Of a stretch of 64,000 nucleotides of DNA, positions 28,042 through 36,773 are shown in pieces. This DNA is from Bacteroidota bacterium (GTDB taxonomy: Bacteria > Bacteroidota > Bacteroidia > AKYH767-A > 2013-40CM-41-45). The notes under the pieces are model-generated. The model saw nothing but the letters and a program-made list of their open reading frames with translations. It ran no database searches and had not been told where the DNA came from. The stretch lies in the NCBI GenBank assembly GCA_003389385.1, contig QQVM01000012.1:124001-188000 (forward strand), given 5' to 3'. Each line of letters opens with the position of its first letter. Position 1 is the first letter of the stretch. The translations under genes were made by a program, and so were the position numbers.

Positions 28042-31000
28042 TCACGGTCTTGAGATGATGATATTCAAAACAGCATTTTTCTCAAGTAGACTAAAATCTG
28101 CTGATTCGGCAAGTCCATCACCCGTCAGGTCAGAAATTAGGTAGCCGGAAGATTGATTCAACATGACGGATTCAAAAAAATCAATATCATATTGATCAAT
28201 CCTGCCATCCTGCTCACCAGCAATCAGTCCGCTGATATCTCCCGAATAAATTGCCCATATTCCAGGCATTACTTCTGCGAGATTATTTCCAAATGCGCTA
28301 CCGGAAGAATGCTTTAAGCTGTAATAAGATTCAGCTGAAAAAAGCACAGGCACTGAAGACCATGTTTCGAGAGAATTTCTATGAATAATTTTTAGGTAAT
28401 ATGCTTTCCCAAGAGATACAGAATCAAAGTCCAATGTCAGGAGTCCATTAGTTTTGATTATTCCGCATTTCATTTGAAACTCTATCGATGTGGCCAAATC
28501 GAAAAGGCTTAGGCACACTGTGTCACAATCGTCGGCATTCGCAGAAAGATTATTTTCATACAATACTGCAGACAATGAACCGCCCTCATAAAAACCCTGA
28601 ATCCACAATGATAAAAAAAGCCTTGCTACACAGGTCGACTCATCAATGGTTCCATTGCAATTATCGTCAATTCCATTACAGGCTTCGAATGCACCGGGAT
28701 AAACTTGCGGGTTTGAATCATTGCAATCAGTATTGGACAACACGAATCCGGCCGGTGCTTCACAGGATAATAAAGCAGATCCTGCATCACCAAATCCGTC
28801 ACCGTCGGCATCTGCATACCAAGTTTGCGGAGTTGTCACTGTAAAAGGAATGAAAGAACTGCTAACCGGATTGATTGAGGGGCAGGGGAAAGATGAAGTC
28901 ATCACACATGATATCTGATCTCCATCATTCAAATTATTCATTGAAATATTATCTACGCCTGAAGCTATACTTTGATTATTCAGCCGCCAATCGTAAAGCG
29001 GATTTACTCCTCCGTTTACAGGACTTGCAGTCAAGACCACGGTTTCGCCTTGGCACAGAGAATCACCCGGGCTTGCTGAAATAGATACTGATGGTGTTAA
29101 TGTGGCATTTGCCACCCCGACATTCAACGAGTGAACAGTGAGACACAAGGCACTGTCCCTGATATCAATCAAATAACTCCCGGGAGATAATCCACTCTGC
29201 TGAGAAGAAGTTGAATTATTCAAATGCCACCGGAATGAATATGGTGGGCCAGCGCCTCCACTTACAGATAATATTTCTGCTTCACCATCGCTCGACCATG
29301 TGCAAGTGGCGGGATTTGTAGCATTGACCACAGATATATTTGAAAAAGTTTCAATTTGCGGAGGAACGTTAAGAATTACCGTACATGAATTGGCATCGGT
29401 GATGGAAACCGAATATGAGCCTGCCGGCAGATTCTGAATTGTATGGATCCCCGGATAGAGTCCGTTCATACTCCCAGATACCGGCCCAGACCAATTAAGT
29501 ACGTATGGTGAAGCCCCTGCATACATTCTCAGTGACAAAGAACCTCCGGAAGTTCCCTGACAAGTATTTGTTTTGCTAACTAAATCCAACACAGCTTTCT
29601 GATAATTGTAGGTAGCCGTTGAAGAACATCCATTGACAGTTGCAGTGACGGAACACAAGCCTCCAAAACTTGTAGTATAGGTTGAAGAAGTGCTTCCATC
29701 ATGCCACTTGTATGCAGCGCCTGCAGGATTTGCCCTGAGGGTGATAGAACATCCGTTTAAATTAATCGAAGTTATAGAGGCGGAGGGATAAGCATTGATC
29801 GTCACAGGTATCGCATTAGTGAGGTTTGCAGAGCATGAGCCCGGACTGCCTGTAATCTTGCAACTGTAATTTTTCATCCCTGCTACTGCAGGAGGAGCAA
29901 AGTCTGCGGAAGTCGCTCCACTGATTGGACTTGATCCGTCATACCACTGATAGTTTCCTGAGCCATTGGAAGCCTGACTGGCCTTGAGATAAACTGGATT
30001 ACCCATGCATGTGACAGTTGGAGTCAACGCAATAATTCTTCCTGAATTCACCACACTTACTCTTTGAGGCGGAGCAGTATACACAGAACAGGGAAAAACA
30101 CATGCAGAGCATGCAGAAGCAAATCTTAATTCAAGATGAGCATCATATTCTCCTACAGGAAGCGAGCATGATCCAAGCGCGGCATTCAGATTTATGGAAG
30201 ATTGAGAAACCGGATCATAAGCAGGCCAGGGGAATGAGGCCGTTGATCCGCAACGAACAACAGAGCTGCCTGCATCAGTAATATAAAATTTGAAGGTGCT
30301 GCCTCTCTCCGCAGGACCCTGATAATTGAATGATAAATTTCCATTCTGTCCGGAAGGAACGCATACCGGAGAATTCGAAGTAAAGAGCACAGGGTTGTTT
30401 ACATGTCCGTTCAGCTGATTGGATGTAAACCATAAGACCGCTCCTGGAGAAACAGCATTTCCATGCTGGGTATGGCCTACTAAATTCGGACTATAATTTA
30501 CAGCATCGTCATACCAGTCGTTATACCAAAACTTTTCTGCTGTGAAAATATTATTAGCGACATTTTTATTGAACCAGGATCCAAGAAAATTATTTCCTGC
30601 TCCCCATGCTGTATTCTCGGCGCTCATGAGAGGCAATATATTGGTCTTTTCATTTGTTCCAGGCTGACAAAAATCCAGAAATCTGGTATTATAATACCCT
30701 TGAAAATTCCATCCCGAACTGGTTCTGCTATACATTTTTGCGGGATCACTGGCATAATAATGAAGACTGAAACGGTCAACCCTTCGTTTGCCATTGTACG
30801 AACCGTCGAGCCAGTCAGCGATTGATTGATGTTGGTAAATTGTATTTTGATTCAGAAACCCGAGATATGCTTCCACAAAAATTGAATGACCGGTAATCTG
30901 ATTATTATAATTATCTCTGATGGCATCCATGCTTGTAATCATTGTTTGAAATCGCTCATATTTCTGGTCTCTGGTGGCTGCATCTCCTGTACAATTGTCT

Positions 31001-31602
31001 GCCCCTGAATTCCAAAACTCATACTCTGTGACGAGTACATCAATTTTGTAGTTGCAGGCAGTATTAAACTCAGCCGCACGTAAATTTAATTTTATCGCTT
31101 CAGAGAAATAAAACATGGAGTCTCCGGGCTGGTAGTCTTCAGACAGAAGTTGAAATAAAGAATCAAGTTCAGGGGAGTATGAAAGGGATGAAGAGTTCCT
31201 GCCAGACAAATCCATTGGCTCCGAACCTCCTTCTACTACAGAATTGTATATGCTGGCGCAGGAACTTGCAGCACCGAAGTATTCTATGCAATATTCTGTC
31301 CTGGCTTTCTGAATGAAGTTGCACAGATAACTTTCAAATAACGGATTTCCCAGCACACGGTGAAGGTCATACAAGATCAGGTATGTAAAATGATTGTCTT
31401 TCGCATACTGTAATAAATCATTTTCTTTTTGAGTGACGCTGAGAACAGATAGATTCTGGTCGACAATCAGGGATCCTGATGGGCTGTTTGTTGATCTGAA
31501 AAATTTATCTACATACAATCCCCTTCCTGAATGAGGCAGTTGTCCGAATAACAACACGGACTTTAATATCAGATACACAAAGACAAAAAATATTTTATTC
31601 AT
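28042..31602 (-). CDS. large secreted protein with glycosidase-like N-terminal domain and MopE-type metal-binding motif
   Basis: 1186 residues. Signal peptide (1-20, ending LLFGQ). Residues about 25-430 resemble a TIM-barrel hydrolase-like fold: YLILYDLHRVLG, VLVTEYEFWNSG (Glu at a strand end), FSLHYYASDP, LPLMSAENTAWG (second candidate Glu). The catalytic assignment is inference. Then come beta modules, an Ig-like domain (about 520-620), SprB-like segments (about 670-850), and a MopE-type motif (about 934-990: DADGDGFGD, DCNDSNPQVYPGA, CNGIDDNCNG) known from copper-binding and Myxococcus proteins. The C-terminus has an EF-hand/dockerin-like DLTGDGLAESADF segment instead of a T9SS type A sorting domain. 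The exact function is not recognised. It may be held by another protein through its C-terminus. Confidence 0.72.
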   Translation of the reverse strand: MNKIFFVFVYLILKSVLLFGQLPHSGRGLYVDKFFRSTNSPSGSLIVDQNLSVLSVTQKENDLLQYAKDNHFTYLILYDLHRVLGNPLFESYLCNFIQKARTEYCIEYFGAASSCASIYNSVVEGGSEPMDLSGRNSSSLSYSPELDSLFQLLSEDYQPGDSMFYFSEAIKLNLRAAEFNTACNYKIDVLVTEYEFWNSGADNCTGDAATRDQKYERFQTMITSMDAIRDNYNNQITGHSIFVEAYLGFLNQNTIYQHQSIADWLDGSYNGKRRVDRFSLHYYASDPAKMYSRTSSGWNFQGYYNTRFLDFCQPGTNEKTNILPLMSAENTAWGAGNNFLGSWFNKNVANNIFTAEKFWYNDWYDDAVNYSPNLVGHTQHGNAVSPGAVLWFTSNQLNGHVNNPVLFTSNSPVCVPSGQNGNLSFNYQGPAERGSTFKFYITDAGSSVVRCGSTASFPWPAYDPVSQSSINLNAALGSCSLPVGEYDAHLELRFASACSACVFPCSVYTAPPQRVSVVNSGRIIALTPTVTCMGNPVYLKASQASNGSGNYQWYDGSSPISGATSADFAPPAVAGMKNYSCKITGSPGSCSANLTNAIPVTINAYPSASITSINLNGCSITLRANPAGAAYKWHDGSTSSTYTTSFGGLCSVTATVNGCSSTATYNYQKAVLDLVSKTNTCQGTSGGSLSLRMYAGASPYVLNWSGPVSGSMNGLYPGIHTIQNLPAGSYSVSITDANSCTVILNVPPQIETFSNISVVNATNPATCTWSSDGEAEILSVSGGAGPPYSFRWHLNNSTSSQQSGLSPGSYLIDIRDSALCLTVHSLNVGVANATLTPSVSISASPGDSLCQGETVVLTASPVNGGVNPLYDWRLNNQSIASGVDNISMNNLNDGDQISCVMTSSFPCPSINPVSSSFIPFTVTTPQTWYADADGDGFGDAGSALLSCEAPAGFVLSNTDCNDSNPQVYPGAFEACNGIDDNCNGTIDESTCVARLFLSLWIQGFYEGGSLSAVLYENNLSANADDCDTVCLSLFDLATSIEFQMKCGIIKTNGLLTLDFDSVSLGKAYYLKIIHRNSLETWSSVPVLFSAESYYSLKHSSGSAFGNNLAEVMPGIWAIYSGDISGLIAGEQDGRIDQYDIDFFESVMLNQSSGYLISDLTGDGLAESADFSLLEKNAVLNIIISRP

Positions 31603-31847: not shown

Positions 31848-33632
31848 CTAGAAGGGATACATGATCGGGATCAAAATTGTGGCTAAAATCCAGAATATGA
31901 TATCAAGTGGAAGTCCTATCCTTGTGAAATCAGTGAAGCGATATCTTCCCGGCACATAAATCATTGTGTTGGTTTGATAACCCACAGGGGTAATCAGGCT
32001 CAACGATGCTGCGAATGTGACGGCCATTAGAAAAGGCCGTGCACTAAGACCCAATGCTTCAGCCGTGATGATGGCGATAGGAGCCAGCAGCGCCGCTGTT
32101 GCATTGTTCGACATGAAGTTTGTAAAGATCAGGGTGAGAAGAAAAAACGCAGAAACCAACGCTCGATTTCCCAATTGTCCGACTGTGCTGATCATTAAGT
32201 CCGAAATTAAAGTTGCAGCTCCAGACCTTTCCAGCGCCACACCCATTGAAAGAACACCTGCGAGAAGGAAAATCACTTTCCATTCCACTGCTTTATAGCA
32301 TTCTTCAATCTTTATGCATTTGGTGATAATGAGCATAATGCATCCAAGTATTGAGCCTGGAAGGATTGAAAGAATTCCTGATGCAGCCATCAGTACAACA
32401 CTGAATACGATTATGAAGGCTATCAGAATTTTATTCTTTCTGAATGAGGGTAAACCAGGATCAGATATGATCACAAAATCCTGACTTTCCTTAAGGCGTC
32501 TTAATGTGGATTCTGAGCAACTGATCAATAACGCATCTCCTGCATTCAATTTTACATGGCCAAGCTTTTCATGAAGTATTTCCTCTCTTTGCTTGATAGC
32601 AAGAACGGTTGACCCGTATGAGTTTCTGAAATCGATTTTCTTGATGGTTGTTCCAACAAGATCCGAGCTGGGAGAAATCACTGCTTCCACAAGTTTATTT
32701 TTCCCCTGCTGCATATCCTTGTCGTGCAGCTGGATGTCAGATTTGAGCCTGATTCCTTGTCTTTCCTGCAACTCCTGAATTTTTCCGGCGTCGCCTCTGA
32801 TTCTGAGTACATCACCTTCTTCAAGCACGGTGTCTGAGCCGGGAAAACGAAGCACCAGATTAGAATCTTTTTTCCTGATTTCAATGATGTCAATATCCAA
32901 TTCACGTACCAGGGGAGCATTGCCAATTGTTGAACCGATTGACACGGAATCTTCCAGCAGAACAATTTCAGTAAGATATTCTCCCATTCCGAATTCTTCG
33001 GTGAGATCTTTGTCCTGTCCGCGGTCTGGTATCCACTTTTTCGCTGCGATGATCATATAGATGGTACCTGACACAAATACAACCAGTCCGAATGGAGCCA
33101 TTTCAAACATCGAAAACTCTTCCTGGCCACGCGTTGCTGCAATAGAGGAAACAAGCAGGTTGGTGGATGTTCCGATTAAAGTGCAGACACCTCCAAACAG
33201 AGCAGAAAAAGAAAGAGGCATTAGTAATTTGCTTGGACTGATTTTAGTTTGCCGCGCGACCTTGAGCACTACTGGCATCAAAAGAGCTACAACTGCAGTG
33301 TCATTGATAAATGCAGACATCGCTCCGGCCATGAAAGTCAGAAGGATAAGAAACAGCCAGTCGCTCTTTCCGTGAGCGCGGAATAGCATCAATCCAACGA
33401 AATTGAGGGCCCCCGTTCGAAACAAACCCGCACTGAGTACAAACATGGCTCCAACAGTAACTGTAGCAGGATTACTGAAACCGGAAACTCCTTCCTCAGG
33501 TGTAATCACACCGGAAACAATGAGCAGACCCATTACAATCATAGCAGTCAGCTCAACGGCAATTACCTCAGTGAAAAAGAGAATGACTGCCAGGAGAATT
33601 ACAGCAAGTGTGATGATAACATCTGCATTCAT
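31848..33632 (-). CDS. SLC13/DASS-type permease with two RCK_C (TrkA_C) domains
   Basis: 594-residue inner-membrane transporter. N-terminal helices and the first signature hairpin (FINDTAVVALLMPVV) lie before about 205; two cytoplasmic TrkA_C domains follow (about 205-295, VSIGSTIGNAPLVRELDI and EEGDVLRIRGD; about 305-380, SDLVGTTIKKIDFRN and NAGDALLISC); the second half carries the matching signature (MSNNATAALLAPIAI). These paired N-(D/N)-T-type motifs bind sodium and substrate in the DASS family, which carries dicarboxylates, sulfate and related anions. The RCK_C domains are probable ligand sensors, as in potassium channels. It is transcribed divergently from the MscS-like operon, about 240 bases away. 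The substrate cannot be read from the sequence. Confidence 0.87.
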   Translation of the reverse strand: MNADVIITLAVILLAVILFFTEVIAVELTAMIVMGLLIVSGVITPEEGVSGFSNPATVTVGAMFVLSAGLFRTGALNFVGLMLFRAHGKSDWLFLILLTFMAGAMSAFINDTAVVALLMPVVLKVARQTKISPSKLLMPLSFSALFGGVCTLIGTSTNLLVSSIAATRGQEEFSMFEMAPFGLVVFVSGTIYMIIAAKKWIPDRGQDKDLTEEFGMGEYLTEIVLLEDSVSIGSTIGNAPLVRELDIDIIEIRKKDSNLVLRFPGSDTVLEEGDVLRIRGDAGKIQELQERQGIRLKSDIQLHDKDMQQGKNKLVEAVISPSSDLVGTTIKKIDFRNSYGSTVLAIKQREEILHEKLGHVKLNAGDALLISCSESTLRRLKESQDFVIISDPGLPSFRKNKILIAFIIVFSVVLMAASGILSILPGSILGCIMLIITKCIKIEECYKAVEWKVIFLLAGVLSMGVALERSGAATLISDLMISTVGQLGNRALVSAFFLLTLIFTNFMSNNATAALLAPIAIITAEALGLSARPFLMAVTFAASLSLITPVGYQTNTMIYVPGRYRFTDFTRIGLPLDIIFWILATILIPIMYPF

Positions 33633-33871: not shown

Positions 33872-34705
33872 ATGATACAATTTGAAAAAGACTATCTCGC
33901 TTCTGTATTCAACAAGGTGATGCAGGATATTTCCATGTGGATTCCATCTGCACTGGGAATAATTCTGATTCTTTTCATCGGCTGGATAATTGCCTGGCTT
34001 TTCAGATGGCTGGTATCTTTTCTATTAAAAAAAGCAGGACTTGACCTCCTCACTGAAAAGTCTGGCGCACAAAAAGTACTTCATTCCTGGGGAATTAAAA
34101 AGCCTCTGTCAAAACTTGCAGGCCGTCTCTTTTATTGGGTGGTGTTGATACTGTTCATTCTGGTCGCTGTCGAAAGTATGGGCTTAAACATCGTAGCCGG
34201 ACTGTTTAAAACTGTGATCGGATATGTACCTCATATCATCGGTGCTCTTCTCATCATACTTGCAGGAGGATTCCTTGCAAACATCATCGGCGACACTGTC
34301 GCAGCCATGGGAGAAAAATCCGGTGTGGTCAGAAAATCAATTCTGGGCCAGGCGGTAAAGTATGTTCTTATAATATTTACGATCATAATTGCCATGCAGG
34401 AGCTTGGCGTTGAAACCTTGTTGCTTTCATCTGTTGTGATTGTGCTGGTAGCAGGGCTTGCCATTGCACTCAGCATTGGTTTCGGCCTTGGCAGTCGTGA
34501 GCTTGCAAGAAACATCATGGCAGGATTTCATGCCAGAGAAAGTTTCGCTCCTGGCATTAGATTAAAAGTCGGAACTCATGAAGGAGTGTTAATCAGAATC
34601 GGAACATACAAATTCATACTGGACACGGGCAATGCCAGCATTTCTCTGCCAAATCATTTGCTAACGGAGCATGAAGTTTTAATAATGAATCACGGACAAA
34701 AATAA
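33872..34705 (+). CDS. MscS-like mechanosensitive channel protein
   Basis: 277 residues from ATG 33872 (MIQFEKDYLASV); a longer version would need a TTG start at 33812, and the extra 20 residues are not membrane-like. Features: conserved TM-helix repeats (IPSALGIILILFIGWIIAWL at about 21-40, and GYVPHIIGALLIILAGGFLANIIG), several more helices, a pore-helix-like segment rich in Gly/Ala (GLAIALSIGFGLGSRELARNIM), and a short beta domain (GIRLKVGTHEGVLIRIGTYK) ending ISLPNHLL. It lacks the C-terminal alpha/beta domain of E. coli MscS. It probably releases small osmolytes or ions under membrane tension. It is the first gene of a three-gene operon, 2 bases before the SLC13 permease gene. Confidence 0.82.
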   Translation: MIQFEKDYLASVFNKVMQDISMWIPSALGIILILFIGWIIAWLFRWLVSFLLKKAGLDLLTEKSGAQKVLHSWGIKKPLSKLAGRLFYWVVLILFILVAVESMGLNIVAGLFKTVIGYVPHIIGALLIILAGGFLANIIGDTVAAMGEKSGVVRKSILGQAVKYVLIIFTIIIAMQELGVETLLLSSVVIVLVAGLAIALSIGFGLGSRELARNIMAGFHARESFAPGIRLKVGTHEGVLIRIGTYKFILDTGNASISLPNHLLTEHEVLIMNHGQK

Positions 34706-34707
34706 AT

Positions 34708-36429
34708 ATGGAAGGAAGACACATCAATCCGGAGCTTTATTTTAAAAAGCTGCACCTGGGAGAATCCGTAGCCGAGGAACGTGAGCACATCAGCACATGC
34801 GAGACATGCCGGAAGAATGTGGAGAAACTGACAGAACGAAAAATCAATCCCGATCAAGGGGTCAGTTCATACAGTTATGTCAGATTTCTTGAAAACCTGA
34901 TCCGCTCCGGAATGTCGCTTATGATACCTTCGTTCAGGAAAAATCTTTCACGAAGCGAGATTCAATCAGCGGAGCCGGTCGAGGAAAAATTTCCCGAACC
35001 GCTCAGGGTATTGTTACCAAGAAGCCTCGCATTTTTCCAAACAAGTGCCGGCAAGTTCCTGATCATATTCGCTCTCACATCGCTCACACTTCTCATTCCG
35101 ATGCCGGAGGGATTAAGTTCAGAAGGGCAAAGAGCAATTGCAGGCTTTGTTTTTACCGCAAGCATACTTGCATTGCAACCGGTTTCACTTCCGCTTGCGG
35201 CGCTGATGGTTCCCTTGATGCTTGTACTGCTGAATGTCGCGAGCGCGGGAGAGGGCTTTGAGACTTTTTCCAGACCGGTTGTATTCCTGATACTTGCCAG
35301 CCTTTTTCTCGCTGAAGCACTGAATAAATACGGTCTTACCAAAAGACTTGCGCTCTACACCATAGTGTCCACCAAAGGAAATATTAAAAAACTACTTTGG
35401 GGAATCATGGGTATATCCGCATTCCTTTCCATGTGGGTTGAAAACACAGCAACTGCCGCAGTTCTGATACCTGTTGCGCTTACTATTTCACGTGAAGTGA
35501 AAGATCAGAAGGAAGCAAGAAAGATTCTTGTATTGCTTGTGCTTGGGATAGCTTACAGCGCAAGTCTTGGCGGTATGGTTACCATCATGGGTTCTGCATC
35601 CAATGCAGTCGCTTCCGGATTCCTGGCAAACATCCGACCCTGGACATTCATCGACTGGCTGCAATACGGCTTACCGCCTTTCTTGCTCATTTTTCCTCTG
35701 ACATTTTTCATTCTCATCAGGATGCTTCCGGTTAATATCGAAGAGCTGAACATTGATCAGGTAAAAAAAAGTCTGGAAGGAATGGGCAAAATGAAATCCA
35801 GAGAAGTGGAAGTCCTGCTTACAATGAGCTTTGCAGCTATACTATGGATCGCAGGATCATACATTGAAACTTCACTGAATCTTCCGGCTACATTGATGTC
35901 AAGCGCTGTGATTGCAGTGGGAGCGGTCTTATACCTTGCCGGACGACAGTTAATTTCCTGGGATGATATCAAGGATGTGAGCTGGGGAATATTTTTCATC
36001 ATAGGGGCGGGCCTCTCTTTGGGAGAAGCATTGAACAGGACCGGTGTGACTGAATGGTTTGCAGTGATAGTTTCACCACTTGTCACTGAACCTCCGTTCT
36101 GGATGACACTGCTTCTGCTGGTGCTGATTTCATCCTTGCTGACTAATGTCCTTAACAATACAACCATCGCTGCGGTTCTGGTTCCGGTATTCATCAGTGT
36201 GGCCGCTTCAAACCCAGGCATTGATGCCGTACAGCTTGTCTTGCCTGTTACATTAGCCACCACCTTCGGATACTCACTTCCGTCTGCCTCGGGAAGAATG
36301 GCGCTGATTGGTGCAAGCGGTATTGTTTCTTCACAGGAAATGATGCGTTATGGCTTAGTGGTGACATTCTTCAGTTCAATAGTGCTTGCAGCGGTATTTT
36401 ATGTATTCACCTTGTTAAACCTGATTTAA
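34708..36429 (+). CDS. SLC13-type permease with N-terminal anti-sigma-like zinc finger
   Basis: 573-residue inner-membrane protein. The N-terminus (about 1-45) carries H27-x3-C31-x2-C34, the zinc-finger pattern of cytoplasmic anti-sigma factors (zf-HC2 type). A hydrophilic linker reaches about residue 110, then 11 or more helices of SLC13/DASS type follow, with signature hairpins WVENTATAAVLIPVAL and VLNNTTIAAVLVPVFI. Unlike the SLC13 gene on the other strand it has no RCK_C domains between its halves. The gene starts 2 bases after the MscS-like gene and is followed after 11 bases by a Rossmann-fold gene, so the three are very probably co-transcribed. Likely an anion or dicarboxylate transporter whose zinc finger could sense redox or bind a regulator; this role is inference. 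Confidence 0.82.
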   Translation: MEGRHINPELYFKKLHLGESVAEEREHISTCETCRKNVEKLTERKINPDQGVSSYSYVRFLENLIRSGMSLMIPSFRKNLSRSEIQSAEPVEEKFPEPLRVLLPRSLAFFQTSAGKFLIIFALTSLTLLIPMPEGLSSEGQRAIAGFVFTASILALQPVSLPLAALMVPLMLVLLNVASAGEGFETFSRPVVFLILASLFLAEALNKYGLTKRLALYTIVSTKGNIKKLLWGIMGISAFLSMWVENTATAAVLIPVALTISREVKDQKEARKILVLLVLGIAYSASLGGMVTIMGSASNAVASGFLANIRPWTFIDWLQYGLPPFLLIFPLTFFILIRMLPVNIEELNIDQVKKSLEGMGKMKSREVEVLLTMSFAAILWIAGSYIETSLNLPATLMSSAVIAVGAVLYLAGRQLISWDDIKDVSWGIFFIIGAGLSLGEALNRTGVTEWFAVIVSPLVTEPPFWMTLLLLVLISSLLTNVLNNTTIAAVLVPVFISVAASNPGIDAVQLVLPVTLATTFGYSLPSASGRMALIGASGIVSSQEMMRYGLVVTFFSSIVLAAVFYVFTLLNLI

Positions 36430-36440
36430 ATTCCATTCAT

Positions 36441-36773
36441 ATGAAAATACTTGTAGCAGGAGCGGGAGAACGCGGCAGCAGAGTGATTCAGCAGCTTTTA
36501 AAAAATAAAAGCATTGAAATCATCGTGCTTGACCCTCGTGAAGAAACTTATGCAGTAAAAAATAAGATTATCGGGAAGGTAGATTTAAAGGAAAGCCTGA
36601 CCCCATTAACGCTGGACTACATCCTGAACAAATGCAATCCTGACCTGATCATTCTTGCGTCCCATTCGCTTGATCTAGGACTTGGCAATATCGGAAGCTC
36701 ACATCTGCTAAGCAGATCTATACGCGAGGAACTGGCAGCCATTTCACCAGTTCCGGTCATTGAGGTTGATTAG
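36441..36773 (+). CDS. stand-alone Rossmann-fold (TrkA-N-like) nucleotide-binding protein
   Basis: 110 residues. The opening MKILVAGAGERGSRVIQQLL is a textbook nucleotide-binding beta-alpha-beta unit with GxGxxG at 7-12, and the second strand ends in an Asp (IIVLDPREE), as in NAD-binding TrkA-N/RCK_N domains. It ends after the fourth strand, so it is shorter than a complete RCK unit and has no RCK_C part. Position (third gene of the operon, 11 bases after the SLC13 gene) suggests it binds the neighbouring transporter or channel. Its stop codon overlaps the stop of the convergent OmpA gene by 3 bases. Alternative: a dehydrogenase fragment, but the frame is clean and has its own start. Confidence 0.72.
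   Translation: MKILVAGAGERGSRVIQQLLKNKSIEIIVLDPREETYAVKNKIIGKVDLKESLTPLTLDYILNKCNPDLIILASHSLDLGLGNIGSSHLLSRSIREELAAISPVPVIEVD

Follow-up and report, generated by a model that had tools for sequence, protein, structure and literature searches.

The window, the whole 64,000-nucleotide stretch analysed, contains three closely packed co-directional genes, referred to here as the cassette, and a divergent gene that lies beside them. The features are, by position in the window:

31848..33632, minus strand: P0004, divergent SLC13 protein of 594 aa with two TrkA_C (RCK_C) domains (Pfam), a probable looser partner of the cassette.
33872..34705, plus strand: P0001, MscS-like channel of 277 aa (open reading frame, PF05552, family profile).
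34708..36429, plus strand: P0002, zf-HC2-type zinc finger fused to a DASS/SLC13 permease, 573 aa (TIGR00785, VcINDY homology).
34708..34995, plus strand: N-terminal zinc-finger region of P0002 (H5, H27, C31 and C34, then a helix; zf-HC2 above cut-off in the orthologues L035, L036 and L039).
35440..35448, plus strand: first SNT motif of P0002, altered (E245-N246-T247; ENT in 6/6 close members).
36154..36162, plus strand: second SNT motif of P0002, altered (N483-N484-T485; alignment).
36441..36773, plus strand: P0003, stand-alone Rossmann protein of 110 aa (GxGxxG, structure model).

The open reading frames are exact, with 2 bases between the stop of P0001 (34705) and the start of P0002 (34708) and 11 bases between the stop of P0002 (36429) and the start of P0003 (36441). 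At its 3′ end P0003 is convergent with an OmpA-like gene, which it overlaps by 4 bases. No Rfam element was found in the window between 31000 and 37500, and promoter and terminator scans of the locus gave results at or below shuffled expectation and are uninformative. The cassette genes have a GC content of 0.43–0.46, slightly above that of the window (0.42), a difference that we did not count toward transfer. In the flanking region, positions 28042–31602 encode a 1186-aa protein with a signal-like N-terminus, a metal-binding motif of the MopE type and a weak Ig-like match.

P0001 matches PF05552 at 51.6 bits, and the profile of its family (A2) aligns with residues 23–178 of MscS (E = 1e-11), a region that includes the pore and transmembrane (TM) part and the beta-domain. 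Extra N-terminal TM helices precede this region, and P0001 has no match to the C-terminal cytosolic cage (MS_channel_3rd, PF21082); the protein stops where the beta-domain ends. Foldseek also matched the structural model of P0001 to MscS (E = 9e-7), but the model is of low confidence (pLDDT 69.6, pTM 0.39), and we therefore relied on the sequence match alone.

P0002 is a DASS/SLC13 protein (TIGR00785, 255 bits against a cut-off of 198.6) and shares homology with VcINDY across its transport region (E = 3e-50). Its N-terminus carries an H-x3-C-x2-C motif (H27, C31, C34) that is invariant, and the amphipathic helix behind the finger is also conserved. The orthologues L035, L036 and L039 exceed the Pfam cut-off for zf-HC2, whereas P0002 of the window falls below it. 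The zf-HC2 fold is that of zinc-containing anti-sigma factors.

The two Ser-Asn-Thr motifs, which in VcINDY bind substrate carboxylates and contribute to the Na+ sites (PMC7553777), are both altered. The first reads Glu-Asn-Thr in all six close members, none of which has the canonical SNT there; the second reads Asn-Asn-Thr, except in L037, where it is Asn-Asn-Ala. In a more distant group of relatives the two sites are Leu-Asn-Thr and Asn-Asn-Val, respectively. VcINDY has SNT, and nearly all ordinary SLC13 relatives retain Ser at both sites. Because Ser is replaced in both motifs, the substrate or the coupling ion has likely changed in this clade. Judged by its sequence, P0002 is a member of the superfamily but not a canonical symporter.

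The G-x-G-x-x-G motif of P0003 is invariant, and its model (pLDDT 83.6) is a small, complete Rossmann unit. In structure comparison the model scores Z = 11.3 against threonine dehydrogenases (TDH), 10.0–10.7 against KtrA/KTN over ~95 residues and 10.2 against KefC (VIA). The fold is thus KTN-like and equally near NAD-dependent sugar epimerase/TDH domains. P0003 does not reach the TrkA_N cut-off (19.2 bits versus 23.8), and its 110 residues contain no TrkA_C match that would mark an RCK_C half. A PDB sequence search with P0003 returned only marginal, generic Rossmann matches, and the Foldseek matches were just as generic. We do not claim KTN membership for P0003, as TDH scores slightly above KtrA and KefC and fold alone is no proof of KTN function. 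P0004, for its part, has two TrkA_C (RCK_C) domains and no KTN domain by Pfam, and its residues 228–287 show a weak sequence match to KhtT (E = 0.004). In its description of the parts the original prediction thus holds: it had proposed a tight three-gene array, a zinc finger on the SLC13 permease, a lone Rossmann protein and RCK_C domains on the divergent SLC13 protein.

The resemblance of P0003 to dehydrogenase and epimerase NAD domains, together with the DASS membership of P0002, would suit plain metabolic uptake. The SLC13 protein would import a dicarboxylate or a sulfate-like anion, the Rossmann protein would be a small enzyme or fragment acting on that anion, and the MscS-like protein would be a passenger or a safety valve. 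However, at 110 aa P0003 is too small for a catalytic domain, the SNT motifs of P0002 are altered, and the neighbourhood of the related locus L036, described below, has a signalling and osmotic character, not a catabolic one. We consider this reading unlikely, though deserving of some weight.

A search with P0002 in a contig set of 84,980 species recovered five relatives at 56–61% identity. In four of the five, an MscS-like gene lies directly upstream of the SLC13 gene and a Rossmann gene of 114–115 aa directly downstream, so that the full trio occurs in the same order in L035 (Deltaproteobacteria), L036 and L039 (both Anaerolineales) and L038 (Chloroflexi). Identity to the window proteins is 47–53% for the Rossmann protein, 40–43% for the channel and 56–61% for the SLC13 protein. 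In L038 the junction between channel and SLC13 genes reads N, and the zinc finger there cannot be judged. The fifth relative, L037 (Hermodarchaeota, on a 4.4-kb contig that is possibly misbinned), has the SLC13 and Rossmann genes without finger or MscS gene. A profile of P0003 (A1) run against 200 relatives of the L036 genome found the genome of L039 and four more distant members, L051–L054, whose loci likewise comprise SLC13 and Rossmann genes without finger or MscS gene. In the SLC13 tree the close members form one clade with a support of 0.996 (1.0 with the distant group), and the paralogues of the window genome's relatives fall outside it. The cassette members are mostly metagenome assemblies, their numbers are small, and membership as obtained from the pattern scan of genome contigs is a minimum. 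At three of the distant loci, from Chloroflexi relatives (L052:6835-12476, L053 and L054), the SLC13–Rossmann pair adjoins a TPR gene and an AAA/NB-ARC-TPR (ATPase-TPR) gene, with GroEL close by.

The Rossmann gene is paired with an SLC13 gene of the P0002-type clade in all ten genomes that have it. SLC13 and Rossmann genes are thus the constant core in ten genomes, and the MscS gene and the zinc finger, missing from half of the loci, are an added layer; in this small sample the finger is confined to loci that also carry the MscS gene. One could suppose that the genes are independent neighbours, linked by chance on a mobile region and without joint function, given that the cassette is sporadic and that channel and finger are absent from half of the loci. 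Order, strand and mostly tight spacing are nevertheless kept across phyla, and since protein identity there is only 40–61% with the order kept, the linkage is old. The recurrence of the order in four other genomes at this identity is confirmed as more than chance, and we regard independent neighbours as very improbable.

Because its pairing with P0003 is constant in 10/10 genomes, P0002 is the likeliest partner of the Rossmann protein. The original prediction had instead treated P0003 as the missing nucleotide-binding half of P0004, giving an NAD(H)-gated complex. Such a complex would accord with the domain content of P0004, which has two RCK_C domains and no KTN, and with L036, where a P0004-type gene lies directly behind the Rossmann gene. 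In the available sequence, however, an SLC13-RCK_C gene adjoins the cassette in just the window and L036, and the other eight of the ten genomes show none beside it; P0004-type matches occur in 30 of 61 genomes, and are thus common without any Rossmann gene, whereas P0003 occurs in 1 of 149. The RCK_C transporter is therefore the less likely partner, and we give this complex little credence. Two further elements of the original prediction are affected by these data. Synteny confined to a single strain would have told against it, and the co-directional cassette instead recurs in L035, L036, L038 and L039. Its proposal of a joint transport module gains from this conserved cassette and loses its Rossmann–RCK_C pairing, which is disfavoured.

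Among the relatives of the window genome the cassette is very rare. P0003 is absent from the 148 other genomes (1/149 overall), P0001 is nearly absent, and relatives of P0002 reach identities of only 24–34%. Among 345 Bacteroidota, the phylum of the window, the P0003 profile matched no genome other than the window's own, and it matched only the centre genome among 400 genomes of the L036 phylum, 345 of the L035 phylum and 195 of the L037 phylum. A search of all genome contigs with the single P0003 sequence returned nothing, its relatives having been reached only via P0002. The clade spans the window's phylum, Chloroflexi, Deltaproteobacteria and an archaeal bin, yet it is missing from nearly all relatives, and for this reason the cassette looks horizontally transferred. 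No P0003 relative was found on plasmids and no cassette genes on viral contigs, and thus no carrier element was identified. Haloarchaeal plasmid matches to P0002 proved to be ordinary SLC13 proteins without the cassette.

Two features go beyond the original prediction: the altered SNT motifs and a link to enzymes of c-di-AMP metabolism. Upstream of the cassette in L036 lie, in order, genes for an ECF sigma factor, a small finger protein, an MscS paralogue, a second MscS-helix protein, another MscS protein and a DacZ-type diadenylate cyclase (DAC); downstream follow an SLC13-RCK_C gene, a decayed SLC13-RCK_C copy, a DHH phosphoesterase gene and a further SLC13-RCK_C gene. In L038 a DHH/DHHA1 phosphoesterase gene is divergent upstream of the cassette, and another contig of the same genome carries a DacZ cyclase (62% identical to that of L036), an SLC13 protein with four TrkA_C stretches and an MscS protein (62% identical to an L036 one). 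Of the ten genomes, L036 (DAC and DHH) and L038 (DHH) alone were seen to have cyclase or phosphoesterase neighbours; no c-di-AMP enzyme was seen adjoining the cassette in the window, L035, L037, L039 or L051–L054. The window genome's own diadenylate cyclase is on another contig, and no DAC was found in the genomes G480 or G482, both of which are possibly incomplete. Binding of c-di-AMP is an established property of RCK_C domains (PMC10243994), and in haloarchaea dacZ and mscS2 form an operon, deletion of mscS2 having a phenotype at low salt (PMC6741144). For the RCK_C transporter, c-di-AMP appears to be a better-supported signal than NAD(H). A glycosyltransferase gene with a weak mannosylglycerate-synthase match adjoins L039 and may hint at compatible-solute synthesis.

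P0004-type genes also occur apart from the cassette. Among ~33 such loci in relatives of the window genome, MscS is an immediate neighbour in three besides the window (G024, G045 and G031). In three relatives of the window genome, at L124:3181-8252, L092:5962-8618 and L095:6058-9047, an MscS-type gene adjoins an SLC13-RCK_C gene, with same-strand overlap in L092. In G004, which belongs to the same family as the window genome, a CdaA-type diadenylate cyclase gene lies ~2.4 kb from an SLC13-RCK_C gene (L102:3582-8572). In the L036 genome, L128:3851-8176 contains an intact SLC13-RCK_C gene, a broken copy and a third copy with 70% identity, a pattern that suggests duplication and decay within the locus. 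At the head of the gene run upstream of the L036 cassette (L127:11881-13692), the ECF sigma gene overlaps the gene for the small finger protein (112 aa, H-x3-C-x2-C, no Pfam match), and the latter overlaps the gene for an MscS-like protein; the three could form a sigma/anti-sigma/channel operon.

The finger of P0002 raises a different possibility, namely that the carrier is a transceptor in which the zf-HC2 domain has an anti-sigma role, keeping an ECF sigma factor membrane-bound and freeing it according to transport or to metal or redox state, with the Rossmann protein and the channel serving signalling. Several observations would fit: zf-HC2 is a known anti-sigma fold, the finger of P0002 and the amphipathic helix that follows it are conserved, and the L036/L127 gene run is headed by an ECF sigma gene, a stand-alone H-x3-C-x2-C finger protein gene and an MscS paralogue. 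The sigma gene in L127 is already paired with its own finger protein, however; no ECF sigma gene was present among the tested genes flanking the window cassette, and the evidence in P0002 is a zinc motif rather than a full anti-sigma domain. We judge this improbable.

The explanation we favour, tentatively and at somewhat less than an even chance, is that the trio works as a single transport module, acquired by horizontal transfer and serving osmotic adjustment, in which the Rossmann protein is a KTN-like subunit of the SLC13 carrier and the MscS-like channel is a release path. In this module P0002 would transport an organic or inorganic anion, with altered substrate or cation coupling. P0003 would be its cytosolic nucleotide-binding regulatory subunit, as KtrA/KTN is with KtrB, but without the RCK_C half. 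The zinc finger of P0002 may be a cytosolic contact or a redox- or metal-sensing surface; it could link carrier and channel, respond to metal or redox conditions, or tether a sigma factor. The short channel P0001 would let solute out as membrane tension rises, P0004 would be a parallel anion carrier under c-di-AMP control, and the whole locus would set anion content against osmotic state. In a bolder version, which we regard as improbable and put a shade lower than the transceptor above, P0002 would be a transceptor with an anti-sigma-type finger and a detachable KTN-like nucleotide sensor, and would inform transcription about transport or metabolic state; it would stand beside a tension-gated channel in a portable osmotic-control cassette that spreads between bacteria and archaea.

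Confirmation of this module would mean that KTN-type gating, known from K+ transport, also operates on anion carriers, and would add an experimentally tractable case of osmotic anion control to the well-studied c-di-AMP control of K+. In the open-licence full texts searched, no SLC13 carrier was described as having a fused zinc finger or a nucleotide-binding regulator as a separate subunit. The altered SNT motifs offer a clean test of the role of those residues in substrate and cation selection.

Each component resembles a known system in part. P0002 shares the transport region of DASS/SLC13 symporters such as VcINDY, but differs from them in its ENT/NNT rather than SNT/SNT motifs, its N-terminal zinc finger and its dedicated Rossmann partner gene. 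Like the zf-HC2 (ZAS-type) anti-sigma factors, it is a membrane protein whose cytosolic N-terminus carries an H-x3-C-x2-C motif; here, however, the finger is fused to a secondary transporter and the window has no adjacent sigma gene. P0001 is like MscS-type mechanosensitive channels in its TM region and beta-domain (E = 1e-11) and unlike them in its added N-terminal TM helices and lack of a C-terminal cage. As in the KtrAB and TrkAH potassium transporters, a gene for a small cytosolic Rossmann protein adjoins a transporter gene, and P0003 matches the KtrA fold (Z ~10); in contrast to those systems, the transporter is an SLC13 protein rather than a K+ channel-like protein, and P0003 is without the RCK_C half and under the TrkA_N cut-off. 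Compared with the dacZ–mscS2 operon of haloarchaea, the set here adds SLC13–Rossmann and SLC13-RCK_C genes, and the cyclase is found only in L036 (adjacent) and G481 (on another contig), not beside the window copy; what the two share is the linkage of MscS genes with a DacZ-type cyclase in an osmotic context.
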